DNA of 30,189 nt from a virus: positions 1-30,189 of the IMG/VR virus record IMGVR_UViG_3300021375_000112, one strand, 5' to 3'. Positions within the stretch are counted from its first letter, which is position 1. Every line of letters starts with the position of its first letter. The notes under the pieces are model-generated. The model was not told the origin of the DNA, made no database searches, and was given only the letters and a program-made list of their open reading frames with translations. Below are positions 3,693 to 26,550 of this stretch, piece by piece. The position numbers and the translations under genes were made by a program.

Positions 3693-4709
3693 TTATATCT
3701 TACATAGCCTTTTGCCAATATTACCTTCAAATCCTTTAAAATGACCTACAAATTGTGCTGGCATACTTTCTAAACCATGTGTTAGTGTACTTAAACATTT
3801 AATTTTAGTTTTGTTAAAGAAACTTTGTAGTTCTTGATTCCACTCATTACTAAAGGTAGTGTTTTTTGCTGAAAAATTACAACCACGTATTGTTGCATCA
3901 TTGTAGATCACCGCACCTAGATTTGGACCAGGACCATGAGAAGCATCATTGTAATGTTTCATTGCTCCACATAATACAAGAGTTCCGCCGTATGCTAGAT
4001 TTTGTAATCCTGCTAATGTATAATCATTGCCAACATTAGCATGGTAATAATCAAACTTTTCACCTATATCATTGTATGCTTTTAATTTTTTTTGCAGTGG
4101 CCAATCGGGTAAAACTTTAATACCAATACCACCAAGGTTATTTATTGTTGATACTTTTTCATCAGTACTAGTAATACCATAAACTTTTGCACCTTTAGAT
4201 ACTGCTATCTGTACTGCTAGGTGTCCTACACCTCCAGTTGCTCCATCTATTCCTAATACATCTCCTTGTTGGATGTTACATACATTAGCAATGCTGTAGT
4301 ATGATGTCCTACCAACTAAACTAAATGCTGTTGCAAAACGTATAAGTGATTCATCTAAATTATCTAAGTCTGGATCAACTTTAAGTACTGCTGTAGTATC
4401 TTTACATATACCATATTCTCTCCAACCTTTATTATGCCATACATAGGTTCCAACTGGGTAATCAGCACATTTACTTTCTACAACTATGCCAATAGATTCT
4501 CCATATAAAGGAGCATCAGGCTCCATTCTGAAAAAACCACCCTCAAAGCCCATATTTGATCTCATAAAAGGATCAGTGCTACAATATAAATTTTTAACTA
4601 AAAATTCACCTAATTCTATTTCAGGCAATTCTACATCAACAATGTTAAAATCATTTTCTGATACATGTTGGGATAGTTTATATTTTAAATGTATTTCTTT
4701 TGAAATCAT
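3693..4709 (-). CDS. NADP-dependent MDR oxidoreductase (2-alkenal/curcumin reductase-like)
   Basis: A medium-chain dehydrogenase/reductase of the zinc-free NADP-dependent branch (YncB/CurA, leukotriene-B4 12-hydroxydehydrogenase-like). These enzymes reduce the double bond of alpha,beta-unsaturated aldehydes and ketones. Family marks in order: LYCSTDPFMRSNM (42-54), LYGESIGIVVES (68-79), GWREYGI, the nucleotide-binding GATGGVGHLAVQIAVSKGAK (about 155-174), a YHANVGNDYTLAGL block like the family NVGG motif, and a C-terminal FKGFEGNIGKRLCKI. At 338 aa it is full length. No catalytic zinc ligands are visible, as expected for this branch. The start overlaps the exonuclease stop (ATGA), so the two are co-translated behind the sigma70-type promoter at 5400-5428. 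Substrate unknown; a detoxifying metabolic gene is my inference. Confidence 0.9.
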   Translation of the reverse strand: MISKEIHLKYKLSQHVSENDFNIVDVELPEIELGEFLVKNLYCSTDPFMRSNMGFEGGFFRMEPDAPLYGESIGIVVESKCADYPVGTYVWHNKGWREYGICKDTTAVLKVDPDLDNLDESLIRFATAFSLVGRTSYYSIANVCNIQQGDVLGIDGATGGVGHLAVQIAVSKGAKVYGITSTDEKVSTINNLGGIGIKVLPDWPLQKKLKAYNDIGEKFDYYHANVGNDYTLAGLQNLAYGGTLVLCGAMKHYNDASHGPGPNLGAVIYNDATIRGCNFSAKNTTFSNEWNQELQSFFNKTKIKCLSTLTHGLESMPAQFVGHFKGFEGNIGKRLCKI

Positions 4710-6885: not shown

Positions 6886-8163
6886 TTACACCTCTACTGG
6901 TGCTCTACCTAATGGCTCTTCCTCTGGTCCTGCCGCGGCTGGTAGATTATCTACTGGTTCATCCATTGGCATGTCATCTGCTGGCATATCCATTGGTGCT
7001 TCAGAATTGCCTAACCCCATATCACCTGCTGGAGCACTTGCAGGTGCTTCGCCTGTTATAGTTCCAATAGCATTGTCCATCTCTGCTTTAGTAGATTTAG
7101 AATTACCTAAGTGTGCCTCTAGAGCGGCGTTCATGGCATTACCAAAACTTTGAGCCGCCTCTGCACCAAACTCTGCTCTCATTTGATCAGCAATAGCAGG
7201 AATATCTTCATTTTGCATTCTACCAAGTCTTTCAATTTGATCTTGAATATCATCACTTAATGCTCTTGCCGCCATCACAACTTCTGCTTCTTCAACTGTT
7301 GATTCTGAAATCATATCATCAATGATATCATCAAACATGCTTTCTTTTGCTTGTTTCTTTTCGTCTTTAGTATCGCCTGTTATTTTGTAAGTTTCGCCGT
7401 CTACTTCAAACTCCTCTTTACCTTGTGCAATCGCGTCTTTTCTTGCACCTGTAAATTTGTTTTGCTCTGATACTTTCTTGCCAAACATTTGAATACCATT
7501 GCCTACAGCATCTTCTTCTAAACCGTTTAGGAAGCCAACGACTGCATCTCTGCTTTTGCCACTTACTTCTGCAAACATACCTAGTTTTTCTTCAATTGCT
7601 TTTAATGTATCTACACTGTCTAATTCCATTCCAACTTCTCTAGCCATTTCTTTAAATAAAAATTCGCCAATATCAGTTGATGGGAATGTAGGTACGTCTT
7701 CAGTTTTCATACCACAGGCTTCCATATAATCTTTAGCCGCTTTAAGTACGATTGGTAAAACAAATTCATCATCATGTGCAAATCGGGAATCTTGTCTGAA
7801 TCTGTTCATGCATTCTGCACTTGCTTCGTCTACTGTATAGCCACTATCCATAAGTTGTTGAATACCATCATTGATCATTTGTTTCATTTCTTGCATTGCA
7901 GGACTTTCAACATACATGCCTTCTTCAAGCATAACATCAATAACGTCTTTAACACCTAAGTACTTTGCATACTCTGGATCTAAGTTAAACTTCTTGTTAG
8001 TATTTCTCAATCTAACAACATGGGCTTCAGCCTGTTCTCTTACGTTTTCTAGTTTATTTCTAGAATGAAACCCAGTGATTTTAACACCGTGATTTTCTTT
8101 GAGGTATCCATTAAGTTCTTTAAACTTAGCACTACCTGTTTTTTTGAAATTTGTAATTCTCAT
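6886..8163 (-). CDS. Probable virion-associated protein with acidic Pro/Met/Ala-rich tail, 425 aa
   Basis: I do not recognise a named family; conserved-looking N-terminal segments (KFKELNGYLKENHGVKI, GVKDVIDVMLEEGMYVESPA) recall uncharacterised structural proteins of marine T4-like phages. The first 360 residues are mostly helical. The last 60 are low complexity, with repeats of the M-D-M-P-A-D-D type (for example EAPMDMPADDMPMDEPVDN), Gly and Ala. The acidic, helical make-up would suit a scaffold or head-core protein, but no direct motif supports this. The ATG at 8163 lies about 33 nt after a late octamer, with CGGGA as a weak ribosome site. It heads a two-gene unit with the 114-aa gene. Confidence 0.75.
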   Translation of the reverse strand: MRITNFKKTGSAKFKELNGYLKENHGVKITGFHSRNKLENVREQAEAHVVRLRNTNKKFNLDPEYAKYLGVKDVIDVMLEEGMYVESPAMQEMKQMINDGIQQLMDSGYTVDEASAECMNRFRQDSRFAHDDEFVLPIVLKAAKDYMEACGMKTEDVPTFPSTDIGEFLFKEMAREVGMELDSVDTLKAIEEKLGMFAEVSGKSRDAVVGFLNGLEEDAVGNGIQMFGKKVSEQNKFTGARKDAIAQGKEEFEVDGETYKITGDTKDEKKQAKESMFDDIIDDMISESTVEEAEVVMAARALSDDIQDQIERLGRMQNEDIPAIADQMRAEFGAEAAQSFGNAMNAALEAHLGNSKSTKAEMDNAIGTITGEAPASAPAGDMGLGNSEAPMDMPADDMPMDEPVDNLPAAAGPEEEPLGRAPVEV

Positions 8164-10407: not shown

Positions 10408-10415
10408 TATTTATT
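10408..10415 (-). promoter_or_regulatory. Late-type octamer 6 nt before the glycosyltransferase-like gene
   Basis: AATAAATA on the minus strand, then CTGCTA and ATG. It overlaps the stop codon of the superoxide dismutase fusion gene. It is AT-rich enough that chance occurrence cannot be ruled out, but the spacing agrees with the other near-leaderless starts. Confidence 0.45.
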
Positions 10416-11542
10416 TAGGATTTTTTCTTGCCGCCTTTCATGTTGGCACACCAGTGATACATTTTACCCTTCTCACCACTGTACTTTTTTGCTTTTGCAC
10501 GGAGACTACTCACTGAGCCTTTGCAACTGGCTCCTGCCTTCTTTACTCGGCCTGGTCTACTCTTGCCTTTCTTCTTGCCGTCAGCAAAGTTTTCGTCCAT
10601 CTTAGAACGTAATAAATCCTTAAAGTAATTTTCTGCCATTACTGCTCTGTCACTTGTAGTGTGGTCAAATGCTTTCATTACGTCTTCAATGTCTGCATCA
10701 ATAATTATTGCTGGTACTCTTTTAATACCTAATATATGTGCGGCATCGTATCTGTGATGTCCGTTTATGAGATATCCTTTCCTATCTACAATAAATGGCC
10801 TGTCTGCATTTTTTAAAAATACGTCTTCTGCTTTTTTACTTAATCCATCTACACGTTGGCTTTGTACTGGTTTAATTTTATCTATACTGATTTTACCTTC
10901 CTTATAATCAAAATCTGAGTTTTTGATATGACTTCTTCTAATTTGAGGTAATTCATTTCTGTTAAAATGTTTATCGCTTAATGCTCTGTTGTAATCTTCT
11001 TCTATTGAACCTTTTAATCTTATTACACCACAAGCAACTCTATCACCTGCATTGCCTGTTTTTGTGCTTTCTTCGTCTCCACCTTGACCTAAATCATCTG
11101 TATCAGCATGTATTACTATTGCTCTGCCTACTACATCATGTAATTGTACCCTCGGTGCTTTGAATTGGAACCTTGCAATACCTTGATCGTCTGCTTTGAT
11201 GTTTCCTAAGTCACCCACATGTCCGTGTTCTAATCCACCGTGTTCTACGCCTTCTGGATTATAATGTCCTCCGGCACTAGCACAACCGTCACTTAGATCG
11301 CCAAACTCATGTATGTGGAAACCATGTAATCCAGGAGTTAAACCTTTTACTATTCCTTTGATTATTGTTTCTTCGCCAAATTTTTGTTTGAATTTTACAA
11401 ATCCTGTAACATCTTCTGGTGAATGTTCCAATTGACATATTGCTTTTATGGTTTCATTAGACTCTGTGATAGATTCTAACTTAGAGCACTCACAAGTTTT
11501 TGCTTTTGTCTTAGGACAACTTTGAAAATCTACTGCTCTCAT
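10415..11542 (-). CDS. Cu/Zn superoxide dismutase fused to a ParB-like domain and basic tail, 375 aa
   Basis: Residues 30-178 are a Cu/Zn superoxide dismutase (superoxide to peroxide and oxygen). By alignment to human SOD1 every key residue is present: metal ligands His76, His78, His93 (bridging), His101, His108, Asp111 and His145, the disulfide cysteines Cys87 and Cys171, and active-site Arg168 in GDRVACGVI. Residues 196-290 resemble the ParB/Srx N-terminal fold (FIVDRKGYLINGHHRYDAA). Residues 321-375 are a Lys/Gly/Ser-rich tail with AGASCKGSV and MYHWCANM. There is no signal peptide, unlike periplasmic bacterial SodC. A Cys-containing leader (C9, C17, C19) precedes an I-T-E site at 25-27. 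The start overlaps the stop of the giant gene (TAATG), so it belongs to the phage late operon and is not contamination. Confidence 0.93.
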   Translation of the reverse strand: MRAVDFQSCPKTKAKTCECSKLESITESNETIKAICQLEHSPEDVTGFVKFKQKFGEETIIKGIVKGLTPGLHGFHIHEFGDLSDGCASAGGHYNPEGVEHGGLEHGHVGDLGNIKADDQGIARFQFKAPRVQLHDVVGRAIVIHADTDDLGQGGDEESTKTGNAGDRVACGVIRLKGSIEEDYNRALSDKHFNRNELPQIRRSHIKNSDFDYKEGKISIDKIKPVQSQRVDGLSKKAEDVFLKNADRPFIVDRKGYLINGHHRYDAAHILGIKRVPAIIIDADIEDVMKAFDHTTSDRAVMAENYFKDLLRSKMDENFADGKKKGKSRPGRVKKAGASCKGSVSSLRAKAKKYSGEKGKMYHWCANMKGGKKKS

Positions 11543-14500
11543 TACTTAAATCCAAAGGCAAATTTGCCACCTATTCTTGAACTGTAGTAATTTTTACTGC
11601 CGTCTATTTCTACTGTACCTTGGAAGTTTGGCGGATATACAGCCTCCCATCCTGTTACTCTAGCATCATCTCCTTGTTTACCCATTTTACAATATAACTG
11701 TACAATACTGGATTGGTTAAGAAATGCTACACAACCTTGTCCAAACTCTGGACCCGATTCATTTATAAGTCTAGTAACCTTTTTAGCAAGTAAGGCCAAC
11801 AATGCATAACCTGTATTAAACCCTGCAACATCTTGTCTCGGTGTACCATAATTAAATAGTTCTGTTGCGGCTTGACTTAATCCTGCATAGTCTTGTTTGC
11901 CTTGTTGTATATAACCATTGATTTCTTCTTCTAGCCCTTGTGGTAATGCTTTGTATAATTCTGCTAATCTAAAAGGACCATCTTTAGCACTATTGCTTTG
12001 TACAATGTTTATGATTTTTACAGTTGTAGGATATTGTGCTTTTAATTCTTCTGATGCTTTTAATATAGCATCTTGTATATTCTTAACACTTGCTTTAGCA
12101 CCTTTACCACCCTTACTGCTGATACCTACTCTAGTACCGTCTGGTGCTGTAAAGTAACTGTCAACTAGTGGGGCATTCATTGCCATAGGCCAAAATATAC
12201 TACAACTTGCCCATGGTTGACCTTTTAATAAATCATTTTTGGCATCATCTGCCTGACCACCTACCATTTCACTCATTAGTGCAACCGGACCCATTATCTC
12301 ACCAAAGTAATCTCTTAATGCTGGTAAGTTTTTGATCTGTCCTGGAAACACAGGATGTTCCTGTGTATGAATTGTTTCTAATGCATTTACTAATGCTTCT
12401 GATAAGTCGTTACCTGCAGAATTTTTCTTTACTGTTTGTATAACATCCATTACACCATTAAATTCATCATCTGTTTTAATTAAATGTTGTGGATCTATGC
12501 CAATGTCTAATTTCATTGCTCCAGCAGTTTGTAATTTCCAACCAAGTGGTACTTGACCGTTGCTCCATTTACCCATCATATCTGCTGTTTTTTGTTTAAA
12601 GTATCTTCCCCAATATGTTGGTTTATCATTTAATTCTGGATCTGTAAGTGTAGCAATACCAAATGCTAAACTACCATTATTAGGAGTATTAGTCCATTCT
12701 ATTTGACTATTGATTTCTTGTTCTGTTGCTCTAATAAATTCATCTCTGCTTTCTGGATCAGGGAATTGCATTTCTTCTTGTGGGTATAAATCTACACGTT
12801 GAAACTCTAATTGATCGTTTCCTTTTTGAAATCTATCGCCAACAACTCTTCCCATTATACCTTTTGCTTCTAAAAGAGATTTAACGTGTTGCTTACTCCA
12901 CTCATTGATATTGAGTTTTGCTTTTACTTCCGGTCCTAGTGTTTCTGCATAACCTCTAACAATACCTCTTGCACATGCATCATCACCGGCTTCTGCTCTT
13001 AAACGTTTAAAATCATTTAACATTCCTGGAACAGGTATTGCTGTAAAGGCTAACATTTGTTTTTTAAGATCGCTTACTGGAAAATGATCTGCTAATAATT
13101 TGTTTATAACTACAATAGTATCATTGTTTGGCGTGGCATCTTCTTTAACTTTTTTCTTTTTCTTTTTCTCTTTAGGTAAATCTTTAAGCAATGCCGCCAT
13201 GTCTTGGCCTGCTTCTATTGTTTCATATAACTTATCAATTTTAGTTTTATTTACTTTTGATATAATATCTAATTGTTCTTGTAAAGGTAATGCATCAAAT
13301 TTATTAAACACACTTTCTAATTCTGGGTTACTAGGTGAATTGCTGAGTCTATTTCTAACTATTTCTCGTGCTTGAGCTATGGTCATAGGTTCGCCGCCAC
13401 CTGATTTATTACTTACAAGTGCTTGTAATATCATATTCTTAGTGCCGCCTGGAGTAACATCTCCATTTAGTATAGCAACAAGTTTATTTACTTCGGCTTG
13501 AGGCATGTAGTTTTGTATGCCATCTTGCATCATTCTATCAAAAAGTTGATATGCATCTCTGGCAGATTGATAACCGCTATCACTACCATACATACCACTT
13601 ACATCATCACCATCACTGCCGTCTGGATTCTTTCTGAAATAGTTTCCACCACTAACATTATAGTTCTTTTTGATGTAATCTTCTGCGGCTAAAACTGCGG
13701 CGGCCCATCTACTGCCACTAACTACATTTCCACCATCTGGTGCATATTCTTTTTCTGGTCTCCAATCATGGTTACCGTCAAATTGTTTGTATGCTTTCTT
13801 TAAAAGTTCTGCACCTTGGTCATTTACACCACGTGTTATGCCTAAGTGGTCTGCCAAGTTGCCCCAATTTGTTTTACTTGCTATGCCATTAGAAGATTCT
13901 CGATCATAGTCTTCTACACCACCTGCTCTTAATAATGATTCTACTTTGGTATTAAATGCTGTTGCTTTGCTGTCTATTGCTTTTGCTTTTTTAGATAATT
14001 TTGGATTGTTTACATGCCATGCCGCGGCACTTGAAAACTCAAATGGTTCGCCTAAATCACTGTTGAGTTCTTTTCTTGGCAATAGAGGTTCGTGCCCTAA
14101 CCCATTCATTCCCTCTCTTCCGTCGCCGAGAGAACCATTGTCAAAAACAACTCCTCGTAATTTTAACTTTTGTTTGATGTTATGATCGTTGCCACTAACA
14201 TATCTATTCAAGAAATTATCTATACTAACTCTATACTTGTCTCTAAATGCATTGTAGATCTTTTCGATTTTTTCTTCTCTCCAAGTATCTTTAATTTTTC
14301 TGTACATGTGATTTCGTTGCTTATAGGCTTCTCTGGCTATAGATTCATGACTTGTTGGCATTTGTATACAGAAGTCATATGAGCTGTTTTGATTATTCCT
14401 AGCCCAATCTAAATAACCATATAAACTACGATCGGAATAAGAGTCTAATTCATCAATCATTTCTTTTCTATAATATAAGTCGCCGCCAAAATCAAATGTT

Positions 14501-17500
14501 TTTACAGTTGCCAATACTTTACTGTTCTTTTTAGTAAACTCTCGATCTTTTTTATCTACTTTGAGTTTATTATCTATTTGATCTTGTTGAGAGTCAAACC
14601 CTAGTTTTTGTGTAACTTTATCAAATGAAACCATAAACTGTTTAATTGCGTCTAAACGTTTTCTAATTAAGTCAGGTACAGGACCCATTTTATAAACACT
14701 TGGCTTTGTATCTTTTAATCTATAGTATTTGTCAAATGAACCTCTAAAGAAATCTTGTAGCAAATTTTTATAATCTTCTGCTACTGTATCTCCAATTGAT
14801 CTAGGAGTGAATCTCCCGCCGTCTATTTCATCAATGATATCTTTTAACCTTTCTGCTGTATATCCAGTTAGACCAAAAAAGGCTTGACCATCTCTTTGGG
14901 TACCTGCATCAGTACCATCTAGTTCACTGTATTTGTCAAGCATCATGTCATCGGATGTTTCAATAACGTCATACATACTTTTTACAGATTTGTTTATTTC
15001 TTTTAAACTATCTATATATAATTGTAAATCTTCATCTTTAATTCTATCTAATTCTTCCCAACGAGTTCTATACTTAATCATAAACTTGCTCAGCCAATTA
15101 TCTGTATAATTGTCGCCGCCTTGCACTTTTAGATTTACACCTTTACCAACTGGTTGAGTGTAAGGTTTGTATGATTTTAAATGATCAATAAATTTATTGT
15201 ATCCTTCTTTAGATATTGGATCGCCAGGGCTAACCCAATGGCCGTCAACTGGCCCGTATCCAAAAGAGCCACGTGTTATACCACCAAAGAACTCTTTGTA
15301 TTCCGTTTTAAAAGAAGGTTGCTCTATTTGTGTTTTCCAAGCATCTGCTACTACTTTTTTACTTCTAGTTGGTAATACATCTGCTAATTTAGAAATAAAT
15401 TCATCATATTTTTTGCCTTTGAGATCATCACTGTTTATAGCACTCCAGATACCTGATGCTATTTTTTCTACTTGTGGACCTGATGCAAATGATGGTAATT
15501 CCACAAACTCCTTTTTAAATAATCTTTCTACACCATTTTGAGCTCTTTCCAATGTTGTTTGTGGGGAAACTGTTTTATTTGTAAAAATTTCTCTATAAGA
15601 TTTAGTAATCATTTTGCCTAATTCATCGAGAGTAAGTTCAAAATCTTTAACAGTATTTCTCAATATCCCAATACCTTTTGCACTTATGACATCTCTGTTT
15701 AAATTTTGGTTTAAGTCATAACCTGCCTGTGCTACACCTAGTGCAAATTTTTCTTGAGCTTTTTTAAGTAAACCTTCTTTTTGTAATCTATCAGTCTCTA
15801 CATCTTCTTTTAATCCAGGTTTTCTTGCTTTTAGTGTTTTATATCTATGTAAATTGTTAAATGCACTAGCAAGGATAAACATAGATTCTACATAATTTTG
15901 TTTGTTAAAAAATCCTTTCAACACATTTACTGCTGGATGTTCTGCACCATCATCAAATCGGCCTTTTGTTCTTTCATCATCACGATCACTAATTGAATCT
16001 AACTGATTTATAAAGCGGAATAATGCTTTTGCATAATCTTTATTATATGCGTCGTCACCTTCAGTAGTATATCCTGCTGTCATAGTTGTAGCATAACGGA
16101 TTACTGCTTTTGCAACCTTGTTAAAATCTAAATGGTAATCGTCGCCGCCGCCTATTCTAAATTCTACAAGTTGTTTTCCGGTATCTGGATCTGTTTGATC
16201 TTTAAAGTTTATAGAACTAAATTTGGCACTATCAATGCCTTTGCTTAAAATACTTTCTATACCTTTAATAGTTTTTGTATTTTCTGGATTTGCTTTGAGC
16301 TCTGCCGCTTTTCTTTTTAGGCTATCTATTTGGCTTTTTGCATAACTGTTATTTTGTCTGCCAAACGTACTTAATAAATATTTGTCGCCAAGTAGCATTG
16401 CTATTTTTAACTTGTTTGGGCTATTCTCCACCCTGTTATTTGAGGTTCCTTTGCCTTGGTAACTCATAGTAACATGTAACCCTGTTGAATGGTTTGTTTC
16501 TACCCCCATGTCACTAAAAAAATTAAAAAGACTTTTCATCTCTTCAAGCATTTTACCGGGTGAACTGTAAACTGGACTGATAATTTCTGCACCAGTACCT
16601 GAGTAAATATCTATACTACTATCATCTTCTACTGCCCATGTGTCATACCCACTAGTACTACCATACTCTCCATATTCTGCACGATTGGTAAAATCACTAT
16701 ATTGCTCTGACCAGTTATTTAAATAGTCTGCTACTTCTTCTAATCCGCCGCCGCCCTCTGGATTACTTATATAATAATCTCCAAGCTCGGCTAAACAATT
16801 ACCCCAACCACCATATTCTCTATTTGCCCATACATCTATGTCGTATTCGGTCTCTATTTCGTCAACGGCTTCATCCATTGCTTCACCAGACTCACGTATT
16901 GCTTCTTCTATCCATTCGATTAAATCATCTTCTCTTTCTTCTTCTGCGTACTGTCTTCCCCAAGCAATAAAATCCCAATCTTCGTATTCTTCTCGTTCTT
17001 CTTCTGGCAAGTCATCTAGTATGCGTTCTTTGTATTCTTCTATGTCGTCTTCGTCTAGTTGATCTTCAACAAAATCATTTATATAATCTTCATCTTCTTT
17101 TCTATCTTGTGTCATACGGGAAATAATTTCGCCTTCCAAATCAAATGCCATTTCGTAGACCCATTCTCTGTATGCTTCTTCTATTTCATTTACAGCACGT
17201 CTGCCAATTTGATCATAAAGTGCATCTTGTATCTCATACCATGTATTTTCATCAGCCCAGTTTTCGTCTTCACCGCCGCCATATACTTCAGTCCAAACAG
17301 TTTCTGCTTCAAAACCACATTTAATTGGTGCTGTTAGAGCCGCTTGTCCTATTTCTTTTTTATTAAAATTGATTTCAAATATTTGCTCTCGGCCTTGTTC
17401 GCTGAGTTTATGCTTTCTTGCTAATTTTTTAACACCTTGATTATCTTTGCTTCTAAATTTTATTCCAGATTGTGTTTTCTTAACAAGTGTGCCCAACTTA

Positions 17501-17904
17501 CCTTCATCAACTAAAGCATGTACTTCATCTTTGGGATCTAGTAATTGGTATTCACCTTTTTTGTCTTGTACTACAACTTTATCAGGATTTGGTTTATCAC
17601 CTACTTTACTTACAACTTTACCCAATGGGTTTCCATCTTTGTCATTGTACTCTGAATCTACATCTAAATCACCTGCTTTGATAGGTGTATATTTAGGTAG
17701 TTCCTCTGGTGTAGTGTCTACACCTTGTGTTGTTGGACTGCCTTTATCTGGTTTTGCTGTAGTTTTTTGTGTGGTGGGACTTGCTACAGCATTTGCTTTT
17801 GCATTTGCACCAATTTGTTGTCCACCTACTGCGGTAGGTGTGCCTGGCTTTAATCCATATTCATTTAGTAATGATTGAAAAGTTCTTACATCCTTAAACT
17901 TCAT
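11542..17904 (-). CDS. Giant late protein with amidoligase domain, 2120 aa
   Basis: A 6.4-kb gene. The N-terminus MKFKDVRTFQSLLNEYG has a capsid-targeting-like L-N-E (13-15), followed by a low-complexity Thr/Ala/Pro linker. Residues about 193-612 match the putative amidoligase family (COOH-NH2 ligases related to glutamine synthetase): GFEAE (197-201), TWAVEDDSS, GAEIISP (438-444), STGLHVTM (473-480), SSINFK, and VEFRIGGG (580-587). An acidic Glu/Asp-rich insertion occupies about 210-360. Residues 613-1650 are mostly helical and unassigned, with a KEKKKKKKVKE linker. SLLEAKG near 1677 is another (L)-x-E site. The last 441 residues form a separate domain with VDSYF...GISSKGGKGAK, possibly nuclease-like, though this is weak. 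It may ligate peptides or amines on virion or host targets; substrate unknown. Confidence 0.85.
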   Translation of the reverse strand: MKFKDVRTFQSLLNEYGLKPGTPTAVGGQQIGANAKANAVASPTTQKTTAKPDKGSPTTQGVDTTPEELPKYTPIKAGDLDVDSEYNDKDGNPLGKVVSKVGDKPNPDKVVVQDKKGEYQLLDPKDEVHALVDEGKLGTLVKKTQSGIKFRSKDNQGVKKLARKHKLSEQGREQIFEINFNKKEIGQAALTAPIKCGFEAETVWTEVYGGGEDENWADENTWYEIQDALYDQIGRRAVNEIEEAYREWVYEMAFDLEGEIISRMTQDRKEDEDYINDFVEDQLDEDDIEEYKERILDDLPEEEREEYEDWDFIAWGRQYAEEEREDDLIEWIEEAIRESGEAMDEAVDEIETEYDIDVWANREYGGWGNCLAELGDYYISNPEGGGGLEEVADYLNNWSEQYSDFTNRAEYGEYGSTSGYDTWAVEDDSSIDIYSGTGAEIISPVYSSPGKMLEEMKSLFNFFSDMGVETNHSTGLHVTMSYQGKGTSNNRVENSPNKLKIAMLLGDKYLLSTFGRQNNSYAKSQIDSLKRKAAELKANPENTKTIKGIESILSKGIDSAKFSSINFKDQTDPDTGKQLVEFRIGGGDDYHLDFNKVAKAVIRYATTMTAGYTTEGDDAYNKDYAKALFRFINQLDSISDRDDERTKGRFDDGAEHPAVNVLKGFFNKQNYVESMFILASAFNNLHRYKTLKARKPGLKEDVETDRLQKEGLLKKAQEKFALGVAQAGYDLNQNLNRDVISAKGIGILRNTVKDFELTLDELGKMITKSYREIFTNKTVSPQTTLERAQNGVERLFKKEFVELPSFASGPQVEKIASGIWSAINSDDLKGKKYDEFISKLADVLPTRSKKVVADAWKTQIEQPSFKTEYKEFFGGITRGSFGYGPVDGHWVSPGDPISKEGYNKFIDHLKSYKPYTQPVGKGVNLKVQGGDNYTDNWLSKFMIKYRTRWEELDRIKDEDLQLYIDSLKEINKSVKSMYDVIETSDDMMLDKYSELDGTDAGTQRDGQAFFGLTGYTAERLKDIIDEIDGGRFTPRSIGDTVAEDYKNLLQDFFRGSFDKYYRLKDTKPSVYKMGPVPDLIRKRLDAIKQFMVSFDKVTQKLGFDSQQDQIDNKLKVDKKDREFTKKNSKVLATVKTFDFGGDLYYRKEMIDELDSYSDRSLYGYLDWARNNQNSSYDFCIQMPTSHESIAREAYKQRNHMYRKIKDTWREEKIEKIYNAFRDKYRVSIDNFLNRYVSGNDHNIKQKLKLRGVVFDNGSLGDGREGMNGLGHEPLLPRKELNSDLGEPFEFSSAAAWHVNNPKLSKKAKAIDSKATAFNTKVESLLRAGGVEDYDRESSNGIASKTNWGNLADHLGITRGVNDQGAELLKKAYKQFDGNHDWRPEKEYAPDGGNVVSGSRWAAAVLAAEDYIKKNYNVSGGNYFRKNPDGSDGDDVSGMYGSDSGYQSARDAYQLFDRMMQDGIQNYMPQAEVNKLVAILNGDVTPGGTKNMILQALVSNKSGGGEPMTIAQAREIVRNRLSNSPSNPELESVFNKFDALPLQEQLDIISKVNKTKIDKLYETIEAGQDMAALLKDLPKEKKKKKKVKEDATPNNDTIVVINKLLADHFPVSDLKKQMLAFTAIPVPGMLNDFKRLRAEAGDDACARGIVRGYAETLGPEVKAKLNINEWSKQHVKSLLEAKGIMGRVVGDRFQKGNDQLEFQRVDLYPQEEMQFPDPESRDEFIRATEQEINSQIEWTNTPNNGSLAFGIATLTDPELNDKPTYWGRYFKQKTADMMGKWSNGQVPLGWKLQTAGAMKLDIGIDPQHLIKTDDEFNGVMDVIQTVKKNSAGNDLSEALVNALETIHTQEHPVFPGQIKNLPALRDYFGEIMGPVALMSEMVGGQADDAKNDLLKGQPWASCSIFWPMAMNAPLVDSYFTAPDGTRVGISSKGGKGAKASVKNIQDAILKASEELKAQYPTTVKIINIVQSNSAKDGPFRLAELYKALPQGLEEEINGYIQQGKQDYAGLSQAATELFNYGTPRQDVAGFNTGYALLALLAKKVTRLINESGPEFGQGCVAFLNQSSIVQLYCKMGKQGDDARVTGWEAVYPPNFQGTVEIDGSKNYYSSRIGGKFAFGFK

Positions 17905-17905
17905 C

Positions 17906-18202
17906 TTATCGCCTGTTTGTTGCTCTATTTAAAGAACGTAATCTTTTTGATGCTGGATTCATTCTTTTTGTTCTTTGTGATTTTCTTGACATTCTAGCAC
18001 CCATTCGTGCTTTAGTTTTTCTCAATGTCATTCTCTTTTTCATGTCAATTGGTTTATGACATTGACTTGGGTTACTTACTACCCTGCCTTTTCTACGGCC
18101 ACTAGTACAACGGACAGCACGTTTTACTTTGTTGCCCATTTTACGCCAAACCATTCTTGCTTCTATGATTGTGGCTTCCTCGCCTAGTTCTAATAATTTC
18201 AT
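17906..18202 (-). CDS. Very basic protein with capsid-targeting-like N-terminus, 98 aa
   Basis: More than a third of residues are Lys or Arg, with almost no acid after residue 20. It starts MKLLELGEEATIIEARMVW with I-I-E followed by Ala at 12-15. The body is built of basic blocks: GNKVKRAVRCTSGRRKGRVV, MKKRMTLRKTKARMGARM, RKSQRTKRMNPASKRL. Two Cys (about 34 and 48) and one His may be structural. I recall similar uncharacterised proteins in T4-like cyanophages. A packaged nucleic-acid-binding protein is likely. An AGGAT ribosome site precedes the ATG, and the gene is 1 nt from its neighbours on both sides, in the same operon as the amidoligase giant. Confidence 0.85.
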   Translation of the reverse strand: MKLLELGEEATIIEARMVWRKMGNKVKRAVRCTSGRRKGRVVSNPSQCHKPIDMKKRMTLRKTKARMGARMSRKSQRTKRMNPASKRLRSLNRATNRR

Positions 18203-21178: not shown

Positions 21179-22474
21179 CTATGAACCTGGTTTGCCTGAA
21201 CCAAAATTTAGTTTACTGAATTCTAATCTATCTACTAATTTTAATGCGTTGCCTAATCTATCTACAGCAACAAATCCTTCTTCACCAGTTATCTCATAAC
21301 CTTTTTCTGTTTGTTTAAATGTTGGCATTTGTCTTATCTGCTCTAGTTTTCTAACAATAATAATTTTTGCTTCTATGAGTTTTAAGTACAAATCATATAC
21401 TGCAATAATACTCTGTAAATTTTCTTTAATAAATTTTACACCTTGTACCATTGTTTGTGTTTTAGCATCAATAGTTTTTTGTTGTTTAACTTTATCTATC
21501 TCTTTTGTCCAATAATTTACAAATTTTGTGATAAAGTCTTGTGCAAATTTAGTAGGTTCATCAAAGTGTCCTTGACGTACTTGATTATTTGCATGAGCTT
21601 TTAACTGTTCTAAAAATGTTTTACCAACTAAGTCAGTTCCTTTTTGCAACCAACTAAAAGTATTTGCATCAATACTTTTTAAATAATTGTCTGCTTCTTG
21701 TATAGCACTAAGCATTTTATGACCTTCAGCATCACTTAGGGTTACTGTACCACTTAAATCTTTAATGGTTGCATCTCTTTGCCATACACCAGCATTTGCC
21801 CCATTACCTAACACACTAGCATCAAAACCAAATTTTGCTTGAGTATCTGCTAGTGTTGGACCACCTACATATTCTGTGTGCCATACAATACCAAATCCAG
21901 CACTTAATATTTCTTTTGCTAGATCACTATCTTTAGGTATAGCATAAACAATAGTATTTGGTTTGAAAACTATATATTGCTCACCGTCAATAACTTCTTC
22001 TTTTATATCTTCTGATCCGGCAAAAAGCATATCACCTTGTGCAACTGTGTCCCAATTTAATCTGCTTAAATATTTCAATGCAAGTTTAAGTTTATCTCTC
22101 AAACCACTGGCATCTTTTTCGCCTTGATCGGCATGATATTTTTCTATATCCGAATTTGTAAAATTCATTTTAGGCTTTTTAGCAAAAACACCTTTGGTTC
22201 CTACAAAGAATTTTCCAGTTTGTGGGTCTTTACCTGCTACAATGGCTGGTGCTCCATCCCATTTAGTTGTCATTGATACTGGAGTTTTTGTATTACCTTC
22301 TAGCATTTGATGTAAACTGTATAGATAGTCTACTGCTTCTTTGGCACCTTCATGTCCTTTATTAAAGATATTATCTTCTAAATGTTCTAAGTGAGTATTT
22401 TTACCATCTGCTTCAAGTAAAGATTCTGTGAGGATTGTTGTTACTAGAGGTTTAGAAATTTCTAAAAATTTCAT
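21179..22474 (-). CDS. Nucleotidyltransferase / RNA-ligase-like protein with capsid-targeting-like N-terminus, 431 aa
   Basis: Carries the signature motifs of the covalent nucleotidyltransferase superfamily (ATP-dependent DNA/RNA ligases, capping enzymes). Motif I is TKWDGAPA (70-77) with candidate adenylated Lys71. A motif-III-like AQGDMLFAG is at 145-153. Motif IV is EGFVAVD (399-405) and motif V is LKLVDR (411-416). About 200 residues, largely helical, are inserted between the third and fourth motifs. From memory, similar proteins occur in T4-like cyanophages as uncharacterised families. The N-terminus MKFLEISKPLVTTILTESLL continues to an L-L-E-Ala site (19-22) with L-T-E at 15-17. The start has AGGAG upstream. 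A nucleic-acid end-joining role is inferred; the acceptor is unknown. Confidence 0.78.
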   Translation of the reverse strand: MKFLEISKPLVTTILTESLLEADGKNTHLEHLEDNIFNKGHEGAKEAVDYLYSLHQMLEGNTKTPVSMTTKWDGAPAIVAGKDPQTGKFFVGTKGVFAKKPKMNFTNSDIEKYHADQGEKDASGLRDKLKLALKYLSRLNWDTVAQGDMLFAGSEDIKEEVIDGEQYIVFKPNTIVYAIPKDSDLAKEILSAGFGIVWHTEYVGGPTLADTQAKFGFDASVLGNGANAGVWQRDATIKDLSGTVTLSDAEGHKMLSAIQEADNYLKSIDANTFSWLQKGTDLVGKTFLEQLKAHANNQVRQGHFDEPTKFAQDFITKFVNYWTKEIDKVKQQKTIDAKTQTMVQGVKFIKENLQSIIAVYDLYLKLIEAKIIIVRKLEQIRQMPTFKQTEKGYEITGEEGFVAVDRLGNALKLVDRLEFSKLNFGSGKPGS

Positions 22475-23658: not shown

Positions 23659-25038
23659 TTATATGTCATTTTTCTTAATAAACTCTCTGATGTTTAATGC
23701 CTGGTTTACTGTACTTTGTGCTTTTTCCTCGTCTGCCGCCATTGTATTAGTACGTCTTACTGTTTCTAATACAGAAGAAGTAGTGAGTGTCATTGCATCT
23801 TCATCATCTTCATCTAAATCACTTACTCTAAGTGTATCTGGACAAAACTTCAAGTCTACTTTACTACCAACACCACTACTAGAACGTGTTTTCATAAACT
23901 GTATTTGATATCTACCACGTTCTCTCATAGCATTACTTGTAAAAATACCCACAACATTATCTGCTGTTTGTATTTTACTGATACCACCTGCAATATGATG
24001 GTGGTCAAACTCTATTTCTTCTACTGCACCTCTGTTTAACTGAGATGCTGTTACCATTAAGATACCTTTTTCTACTGCTAAGTTACGCAATTCCTCAGAT
24101 ACATACTTGTCTTTAATAAACAAATCACCCGGACTTACTCTAGCACTAATAGGCATCATCAAATCTAAATAGTCAACCAGTAAGCAATCCACTTTTACAT
24201 CAGTGTTTATTTCATATTCTCTAACAAATGCCCTAATATCGTTTGTTGTAACACCATTACTCATTTGTTTTACTCTAAACTTACCAGCACTCTTAGACTT
24301 CATCTTAACTTTTAAGTGTACATCATCCATATTACGCATAATTTCTTTAGTGCCATATTCACTAACCATTGCATCTAGACGCATACTAATAAGTTGTTCA
24401 CTTAACTCTAAACTAATATAAACAACGTTAAGTCCTGCTAATGCCCAATTGACACCTAAGTTCTGTAAGAACAAACTTTTACCTGCGCCTGAGCCTCCTG
24501 CGAATATTGTGATTTCTCCTCTGTTCAGACCACCGTAAAGTTTCTGATCGAACATTTTCCACCCTGTTGGTGTTGCTCCTGCTTGGTCTTTTATCCACTG
24601 TAATCTCTCTTTTGGATTGTCAAAGTAATCTAGTCCTAAATCTTTTACAAGCCCTACTTGACTTGCGTCTTTAATTTTAGTTTCTACGGCACCGTAATCA
24701 CCTTTTTCTAAATCATCTGTGCTATCAAGTATTGCTTTTTCCAATGCTTTGTGTCTACAAAAAGTTTCTAGGCTATCTAAAAACCATTCAATATGATTAT
24801 CGGTAATGTTTTCTACACGTTCTAAGTCTACATTAGTTGTTGCACTGATTTGATCAATAGTAGGTATACTATTATATTCTGTTGTGTGATCTTTTAAGAA
24901 CTTCACTGCATCTTGAAACTTCTTATTAAACATGTAAGGTTCAACAATATTGTTTACCCTCACAAAAAGTTCAGGATCGCTTACTAAAAAACGTAAAAAT
25001 AGTTCTTGTACTTCTTCTGTGTATTCTTGTCTATCCAT
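23659..25038 (-). CDS. Replicative DNA helicase, DnaB/T4 gp41 family
   Basis: The hexameric helicase that unwinds DNA ahead of the phage replisome. The N-terminal helical domain (1-150) is followed by a RecA-type ATPase core: GWKMFDQKLYGGLNRGEITI (159-178), Walker A GGSGAGKS (181-188), a YISLELSEQ block (207-215), Walker B VDCLLVDYLDLM (283-294), and TASQLNRGAVEEIEFDHHHI with the H4-type Gln. The length of 459 aa is normal for gp41. The expected partner, primase, is encoded three genes upstream, separated by two SGNH genes. The ATG overlaps the end of nothing upstream but shares 8 nt with the SGNH stop at 25031. Confidence 0.95.
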   Translation of the reverse strand: MDRQEYTEEVQELFLRFLVSDPELFVRVNNIVEPYMFNKKFQDAVKFLKDHTTEYNSIPTIDQISATTNVDLERVENITDNHIEWFLDSLETFCRHKALEKAILDSTDDLEKGDYGAVETKIKDASQVGLVKDLGLDYFDNPKERLQWIKDQAGATPTGWKMFDQKLYGGLNRGEITIFAGGSGAGKSLFLQNLGVNWALAGLNVVYISLELSEQLISMRLDAMVSEYGTKEIMRNMDDVHLKVKMKSKSAGKFRVKQMSNGVTTNDIRAFVREYEINTDVKVDCLLVDYLDLMMPISARVSPGDLFIKDKYVSEELRNLAVEKGILMVTASQLNRGAVEEIEFDHHHIAGGISKIQTADNVVGIFTSNAMRERGRYQIQFMKTRSSSGVGSKVDLKFCPDTLRVSDLDEDDEDAMTLTTSSVLETVRRTNTMAADEEKAQSTVNQALNIREFIKKNDI

Positions 25039-25753
25039 ATATTTTACCTATTTGTTGCCAAAAGGATTGTGCTAATAATTTATGACCTTTTTCATTAGGA
25101 TGTGTGTCATCTTGGCTAATTATATATTCCAAATTGTTGTTTAACATATTTGCAATTGATAGTTTTGTCCAGTTATTTTTATTTACTGCACTTTCTAAAA
25201 TATGTATAATTGGTTGTTTTTGCGGACTATACATATGAGTAAACATATTACCTGCTATATGACTATCTGGACCCATACTAGTAAACAAATATTTAATGTT
25301 ATGTTGTTCAAAGTAGTTTTGTAATATCAGTATGTTCTTCAAAGTACTTAGTCTGTAATCAGTGATAGATTGCAAGTACATCATATCTTCAGTTGCCGCA
25401 TTAGAAATATGTACTAAATCTTTATCACGTGTTGTTGAACCTTTTTCAACAATAATATTCATTGATAAGTCTTCTGCAGAATTGTTATTTAAAACTGTAG
25501 TACCACCAATCCATTCTTTTAAGTTTGCATTATAATATTCCTTGCGGAACAAACTAGTCCATTGTATTACCGCCATGTAATTGCTCATGTCATTTTTACT
25601 GCAAAAATCTAGAGTAGTTCTCACTATCCTGTCATTACTACCTCCGGCCATTGATAAATTATGTACTTCTACAAACATGCCATTTTCTACTAGTTGCTGT
25701 GGCCATGTATTATCACCGTCAGTAAAACTACAACCATTTGCTAATAACTTCAT
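25031..25753 (-). CDS. SGNH-hydrolase-like protein A of a tandem pair, 240 aa
   Basis: An SGNH-fold hydrolase candidate. Block I is NGCSFTDG (6-13), where GCS replaces the usual GDS and Ser9 is the likely nucleophile. Block II is AGGSNDRI (36-43). IQWTSLFR stands where block III normally has an Asn. The C-terminal DDTHPNEKGH (215-224) supplies the Asp and His. It is a clear paralog of the next gene upstream, sharing GGSNDRI.RTT, IQWTS..R.E.YN, TSM and HPN..GH. The end of the helicase start overlaps its stop by 8 nt. It probably acts on an ester; substrate unknown. Confidence 0.8.
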   Translation of the reverse strand: MKLLANGCSFTDGDNTWPQQLVENGMFVEVHNLSMAGGSNDRIVRTTLDFCSKNDMSNYMAVIQWTSLFRKEYYNANLKEWIGGTTVLNNNSAEDLSMNIIVEKGSTTRDKDLVHISNAATEDMMYLQSITDYRLSTLKNILILQNYFEQHNIKYLFTSMGPDSHIAGNMFTHMYSPQKQPIIHILESAVNKNNWTKLSIANMLNNNLEYIISQDDTHPNEKGHKLLAQSFWQQIGKIYG

Positions 25754-26550
25754 ATGTAGTTCCTCTTAGACAGTTCACTTACTATTGCTTCACTTATTAG
25801 TCTATGACCCTCTTGGTTAGGATGGTGATCATTTTCACTGACGTAATTAGCACCCATATATCCTGTAAAAGGCTGTGCTGTCCAACTAGATTTATCTAAA
25901 ATATTTTTTAAATCTATTTCTAATTTTGAAGGCGGTGTTTCTATAATGTCAATACTCATATAATCTTGGGCATTTACAATATGATTGTAAAAAGACATTG
26001 ATGTAAATAAAAATGGAATATTATTGCTTTTAAAATATTGCTCTAACACATATACATTTTTATAAAATTGTATTTGATAATCATTGAGAGATTTTAAAAA
26101 CATAAGTTGTTGCTGTGAAGCATTTGATATTTTACTGTATGCTTTATGATTTCTAAATTTTTCTAATGCTAATCCATCGTCCATGTGTATGTTTACTGTT
26201 AGGTCTTCATCTTTAATACCTCTAGACAAAGATGAATGTATAGATGTAGTTGTATTGTTGCATATTCCTAACCATGTTTTAAATAGTTCGTTGTATACTT
26301 CAAATCTTATTGGCGATGTCCATTGAATAATAGCAATGGTGTCTACTGGACCTTTACTAAAATATTCCATTGTTGTTCTAAGTATTCTATCATTACTGCC
26401 ACCAGCAAGAGCATAGTTTGTAACTTTATCAAACTTATCTGCTATCTGATTTGACCAAACATAATCAAGTGGAGGCGTAAGATTTCCTTGCTCGTCATGT
26501 ACTTCACCATGCCCAGCACTAAAACTACAGCCGTTTACAAATAAATTCAT
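25750..26550 (-). CDS. SGNH-hydrolase-like protein B of a tandem pair, 266 aa
   Basis: Paralog of the 240-aa protein just downstream. Block I is NGCSFSAG (6-13, Ser9), block II AGGSNDRIL, then IQWTSPIRFEVYN, LFTSMSF and the C-terminal NDHHPNQEGH (240-249). It has an extra loop of about 15 residues after block I (HGEVHDEQGNLTPPLDYVW). It shares 4-nt overlaps with both the primase upstream and paralog A downstream, so all four genes from primase to helicase are translated as one coupled set. Function in a replication block is unexplained. Confidence 0.8.
   Translation of the reverse strand: MNLFVNGCSFSAGHGEVHDEQGNLTPPLDYVWSNQIADKFDKVTNYALAGGSNDRILRTTMEYFSKGPVDTIAIIQWTSPIRFEVYNELFKTWLGICNNTTTSIHSSLSRGIKDEDLTVNIHMDDGLALEKFRNHKAYSKISNASQQQLMFLKSLNDYQIQFYKNVYVLEQYFKSNNIPFLFTSMSFYNHIVNAQDYMSIDIIETPPSKLEIDLKNILDKSSWTAQPFTGYMGANYVSENDHHPNQEGHRLISEAIVSELSKRNYI

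Follow-up and report, generated by a model that had tools for sequence, protein, structure and literature searches.

SodC enzymes of the Gifsy/Fels type are secreted periplasmic enzymes of lysogens, and phrog_1975 is presumably the prophage-borne periplasmic SodC of this type. A viral Cu/Zn superoxide dismutase (SOD) that ends up in the virion is also described: A245R of the chlorovirus PBCV-1 is late, active and packaged (PMC7019647), and the original prediction for the present locus had pointed to a Cu/Zn-SOD in the PBCV-1 virion. In phage T4, a capsid-targeting sequence (CTS) packs foreign proteins, which are then processed and delivered (PMC9026906, PMC9958956), and we have taken the cleavage logo of gp21 from the same sources. 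According to Wright 2021 (PMC8382915), the Group 2 "eukaryotic-like bacterial" CuZnSODs from marine metagenome-assembled genomes (MAGs) carry a CxRTxAxxCxC leader. A copper or disulfide role was proposed there for the CXC of this leader, and the group was assigned to proteobacterial MAGs of matching GC and its members were proposed as possible proteobacterial forerunners of eukaryotic SOD1. Our literature search found nothing direct on SODs of marine phages.

We have analyzed a stretch of viral DNA of 30,189 nucleotides (IMG/VR record IMGVR_UViG_3300021375_000112, positions 1 to 30,189), called the window below. With a probability of roughly two in three, we propose that a CTS-like leader would pack the SOD encoded there into the phage head and that the prohead protease would trim it, the SOD then sitting with the DNA and probably being delivered.

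A SOD domain in a three-part protein

The ORF at 10415-11542(-) starts with ATG and encodes a 375-aa protein made of a leader, a Cu/Zn-SOD domain, a ParB-like domain and a basic tail (Table 1). Pfam matched Sod_Cu (PF00080) over aa 45-174 with an E-value of 2.1e-44, human SOD1 was a PDB phmmer match of the domain (2e-40), and the modelled domain compares with SOD1 at a TM-score of 0.91 for about 50% identity. All metal ligands are in place (H76, H78, H93, H101, H108, D111, H145), as are R168 of the active site and the disulfide pair C87/C171; Arg175 (in CGVIRL) replaces human Gly150. In the AlphaFold model, built with 48 sequences, the SOD reaches a pLDDT near 90, the tail helices and the ParB-like part reach about 85, and the leader stays at about 50. 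No signal peptide is present; the N-terminus is MRAVDFQSCPKTKAKTCECSKLESITE, which sets the protein apart from the periplasmic bacterial SodC. The original prediction had described a SOD with intact ligands, cysteines and arginine, close to eukaryotic SOD1, devoid of signal peptide and fused to a ParB-like domain, and had called for a structure prediction; each of these features was recovered and the model supports the SOD fold. Judged from sequence and model, the protein is a eukaryote-type Cu/Zn-SOD and the phage enzyme is predicted to be active.

The ParB-like domain, which contains NGHHRYDAA (aa 260-268), calls for a more qualified statement. The match is real, with PHROG ParB-like families reaching 5e-8, but PF02195 scored 15.8 bits, under the Pfam cut-off of 26.3, and the match to SerK NF053625 (2e-5) was also under cut-off. 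Foldseek retrieved 5k5d, 1xw4 and 7ol9, the fold being similar to those of ParB-N, sulfiredoxin and SerK. We thus rejected an identity as a partition ParB, since ParB-N stays under the family cut-off, the Pfam search gave no HTH match in the 375-aa protein and the fold merely resembles ParB, sulfiredoxin and SerK. Sulfiredoxin carries a GCHR-type Cys; NGHHR stands in its place here, and we therefore do not claim a sulfiredoxin activity.

Table 1. Features of the SOD locus in the window (the limits of the ParB-like domain and of the tail are approximate; protease sites and CTS-like character are predicted)
Feature	Position	Strand	Basis or remark
Protein matching phrog_14154, PHROG "virion structural protein"	6886..8163	(-)	downstream of SOD
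Basic C-terminal tail, aa 317-375 (ENFADGKKKGKSRPGRVKKAGASCKGS...KMYHWCANMKGGKKKS)	10418..10594	(-)	near-invariant in otherwise different proteins
ParB/sulfiredoxin/SerK-fold domain, aa 191-300	10643..10972	(-)	PHROG ParB-like families, SerK NF053625, Foldseek
I-E-E (aa 180-182) following the SOD, candidate for a second protease site	10997..11005	(-)	[LIVM]xE excess in fusions
Cu/Zn superoxide dismutase domain, aa 32-176	11015..11449	(-)	PF00080, PDB phmmer, TM-score to SOD1
I-T-E, aa 25-27, predicted site of cleavage by the prohead protease (behind aa 27)	11462..11470	(-)	family pattern
Leader, aa 1-27 (MRAVDFQSCPKTKAKTCECSKLESITE), CTS-like propeptide with I-T-E end	11462..11542	(-)	family conservation; disordered in AlphaFold model
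C-x-[RK]-T-x4-C-x-C motif, aa 9-19 (CPKTKAKTCEC)	11486..11518	(-)	family conservation; Wright 2021 Group 2 motif
2120-aa giant protein, CTS-like start MKFKDVRTFQSLLNE	11542..17904	(-)	upstream of SOD
Basic 98-aa protein, CTS-like start MKLLELGEEATIIE then A	17906..18202	(-)	
phrog_455 protein, CTS-like start	21179..22474	(-)	relatives in T4-like marine phages

A first scan of IMG/VR returned over 590 sequences related to one part or another of the protein, and the SOD domain alone as query gave 248 matches. Isolate phages yielded only a sodC of 35% identity and a ParB-like stretch. The modules vary: the SOD stands alone, the ParB-like domain and tail stand alone, or all three occur together, and the ParB-like domain with tail but without SOD is found with a 5'-3' deoxyribonucleotidase. 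The tail is a separate, strongly conserved module, without any match in 50,697 phage records; across 90 loci it is fused to the SOD in 21 and encoded by a nearby separate ORF on the same strand in 18. One 66-aa ORF (L279) is hardly more than the basic tail after a short start (MTVFEVVENFADGKKKG). An assembly artefact, which the original prediction had asked to be checked, was rejected because the identical 375-aa protein is encoded on an independent contig of 59.7 kb (L261) and another locus (L262) carries a 512-aa variant. The suggested search of viral metagenomes recovered the three-part fusion in many contigs, so that the fusion is no longer to be called unusual in this group. The features listed in that prediction stand; it had missed the Cys-rich motif, the separate occurrence of the modules and the Group 2 relatives.

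The basic tail, the ParB-like fold and the fusion to a giant protein described below would fit a head protein with a structural or DNA-condensing role, its SOD domain being mainly a scaffold and the tail or the ParB-like part the functional element. However, the catalytic residues are retained across the viral SOD family, and ORFs of no more than 215 aa that encode the SOD alone account for 66 of the 120 complete forms, which makes this explanation very unlikely in our opinion.

The leader and the predicted protease sites

The leader was found in 119 of the 122 distinct viral SODs fetched; 118 fit the pattern C-x-[RK]-T-x4-C-x-C-...-[LIV]xE followed by A/S, and L278 departs from it at one position. 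C9, T12, C17 and C19 are nearly invariant across the family, and leaders end with [LIVM]xE, then mostly A or S. Among the 93 leaders with a nearby Met, 69 begin with M[KRH]-x-x-[EDQN]-hydrophobic, which resembles the CTS-like starts of other proteins in the SOD phages. Three SODs without the Cys leader (L061, L062 and L063) display a poly-lysine stretch and VYEAQ ahead of the SOD.

A scan of IMG/VR with the exact leader pattern matched 96 contigs, 95 of them in frame and 94 with a visible SOD; the remaining match, in L171, is cut off by the end of the locus, and the SOD lies on the same contig in L309. Every in-frame match thus precedes a SOD and none another protein. For this reason we rejected the Cys motif as a general phage CTS and kept only the [LI]xE part as general. 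The leader match in L233 is out of frame, and a gp21-like match on the corresponding contig, G038, was therefore left out.

A second candidate site lies behind the SOD. In 32 of 33 distinct fusions, the SOD core is followed by [LIVM]xE at a distance of at most 14 aa, for 5.9 expected, counts that are inflated because related sequences are not independent. The control patterns were not enriched at this place ([LIVM]xD, 3 for 8.4 expected; [LIVM]xK, 12 for 10.3). The bias extends to other proteins of these phages, since 74 of 642 non-SOD proteins in SOD loci have an N-terminal [LI]xE[ASG] (27.6 expected, p 2e-13, a figure that kinship inflates as well). In the same proteins, [LI]xD, [FVM]xE and [LI]xK showed no N-terminal excess, nor was any seen in cellular loci (15 sites for 22 expected). 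CTS-like starts were no commoner in genes beside the SOD than in genes further off, a result that does not support a special cluster of CTS genes around it.

These patterns bear on a competing idea, that of an ordinary auxiliary metabolic gene whose SOD acts unpackaged in the infected cytoplasm, the leader being only an extension that loads copper or forms the disulfide, in line with the proposal of Wright. The CXC triad of the leader is like that of the copper chaperone CCS, and the leader is kept even where the SOD is internal to a larger protein. Moreover, the leader-bearing Group 2 member RbCuZnSOD was active when expressed from the MAG gene (PMC8382915), and the mass expected for it, 19.7 kDa, is compatible with a leader that is retained. 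On the other hand, the same study reports that purified zinc-only RbCuZnSOD formed its disulfide slowly despite the CXC. Such a gene would also leave unexplained the [LIVM]xE-A/S end of the leader, the second site behind the SOD and the N-terminal bias throughout these phages. We consider this idea rather unlikely.

Phage context and origin of the family

The window encodes a DnaB helicase, a primase, part of a DNA polymerase, ThyX and the start of the large subunit of RNR, which is complete on the 59.7-kb twin contig. The phrog_455 protein matches proteins of T4-like marine phages (Synechococcus, Methylophilales, HTVC008M) at about 40%. The gene of the giant protein shares its last base with the SOD gene, whose start codon begins with that A (TAATG overlap). 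A homologue of this protein is upstream of or fused to the SOD in 27 of the 68 loci with enough flank, mostly fusion loci, and in L186 and L226 the homologue (34-35% identity) and the leader-SOD form one in-frame ORF. The giant protein has a weak amidoligase match, and its internal YETIEAGQDMAALLK linker recurs in several fusion proteins. The genes downstream of the SOD, including that of the phrog_14154 protein, are conserved in related loci. The late-operon position put forward in the original prediction is consistent with such neighbours, a giant CTS-like protein upstream and a "virion structural protein" downstream.

Other genes of these loci deserve mention. The protein encoded at 3693-4709(-) is like an NADPH-dependent enone/alkenal reductase of the MDR family (TIGR02825, 3e-41, under cut-off) and could be a second redox or detox gene. 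Two tandem, paralogue-looking genes at 25031-25753 and 25750-26550 (-), whose products start with MKLLANGCSFTDG and MNLFVNGCSFSAG, are possibly SGNH-hydrolase-like. Cytidyltransferase-like proteins with CTS-like starts near the SOD in L083, L084 and L359 are maybe further packaged enzymes.

Three SOD-bearing contigs (G010, G036 and G041) encode a T4-type portal, a gp21 protease and gp23, and gp23 of G041 reads KKYLAE then AAST. A portal also lies at the extreme end of G017, a contig reached via a ParB/tail locus. These three head genes are absent from the contig of the window and from the 59.7-kb twin, which is a fragment, and T4-type forms of them were found on none of the other large SOD contigs, including those of 180, 172 and 130 kb. 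Because chance truncation hardly explains 172- and 180-kb contigs without head genes, these two may use a diverged head.

The N-termini of cellular relatives were inspected for the genome hits L083-L121. The nearest cellular SODs listed (L085-L121) have, as judged by eye, signal-peptide-like or lipoprotein-like N-termini. Two MAG copies among the best genome hits (L083 and L084) carry the leader, and both adjoin phage genes. In both, the cytidyltransferase-like protein is fused to a 5'-3' deoxyribonucleotidase, and the L084 contig also encodes a T4-type clamp loader, a split DNA polymerase and a baseplate connector. In addition, when compared with 39 cellular SODs and human SOD1, the viral SODs group in a single clade (99/96). 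One could argue that Group 2 is a bacterial chromosomal family occasionally acquired by phages, in line with its assignment to proteobacterial MAGs and the matching GC reported in PMC8382915. The single viral clade and the phage genes beside both leader-bearing MAG copies speak against it, and we hold it to be more improbable still than the scaffold explanation above. As both MAG copies adjoin phage genes and the viral SODs are one separate clade, Wright Group 2 most likely consists of phage genes that ended up in bacterial MAGs through binning, and the SOD described here most likely belongs to a large phage family earlier reported as bacterial. By its place in the family, RbCuZnSOD (TMED131) would be of phage origin too. 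If true, a phage origin of Group 2 would correct the published bacterial assignment of possible forerunners of SOD1.

A proposed packaged SOD and its known counterparts

Altogether, we propose that the Cu/Zn-SOD encoded by this marine T4-like phage is a cargo of the head. Its N-terminal leader would be a CTS that loads the SOD into the prohead, where a gp21-type protease would cut after I-T-E and remove the leader. A probable second cut at I-E-E behind the SOD would release the ParB-like/tail part. The trimmed SOD would stay beside the DNA inside the capsid and would probably be injected into the cell, presumably protecting against superoxide, which it would remove either in the surroundings of the packaged DNA or when infection begins. 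We infer cleavage, packaging, injection and biological benefit alike from the patterns described above. The interpretation in the original prediction is thus supported in part: the packaged enzyme and the importance of I-T-E, both put forward there, receive strong comparative support from the family-wide site, the sites on both sides of the SOD in fusions, the N-terminal bias and the presence of gp21 in relatives.

The Cys motif may bind copper for loading before the leader is removed. An extension of this idea, which we offer as tentative and rather doubtful, is that the leader is a two-in-one propeptide, serving copper loading through its CxC and also capsid targeting until the prohead protease removes it, which would couple metal loading to packaging and maturation. 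The CxC would then resemble the C-terminal domain of CCS, and the cytoplasmic phage SOD may have no chaperone. In any case, the leader is a concrete, testable propeptide that may join copper loading with capsid targeting.

A parallel can be drawn with several known systems. Like the Gifsy/Fels-type SodC, the protein of the window is a phage-borne Cu/Zn-SOD, from which it differs by the absence of a signal peptide. With Wright Group 2, as far as the available text of that study describes it, it shares the leader motif (with K for R), the E-class disulfide Cys, the absence of a signal peptide and a large or polar residue at the position of human Gly150, here Arg; Group 2 was published as bacterial, and a protease site, a phage context and fusions are absent from that description. 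The internal proteins IPI-IPIII and Alt of T4 likewise have a short N-terminal peptide ending with hydrophobic-x-E, and relatives of the SOD phage encode a T4-type gp21; the cargo is here a metalloenzyme, and the leader is 27 aa long and contains Cys, whereas the CTS of T4 has 10 aa. Finally, A245R of PBCV-1 is a late and active viral Cu/Zn-SOD that virions contain, although it belongs to a eukaryotic virus, and the review (PMC7019647) mentions neither a leader with a protease site nor a fusion. Our analysis suggests that the heads of many marine T4-like phages may contain an antioxidant enzyme, as the phage counterpart of the packaged SOD of chloroviruses.
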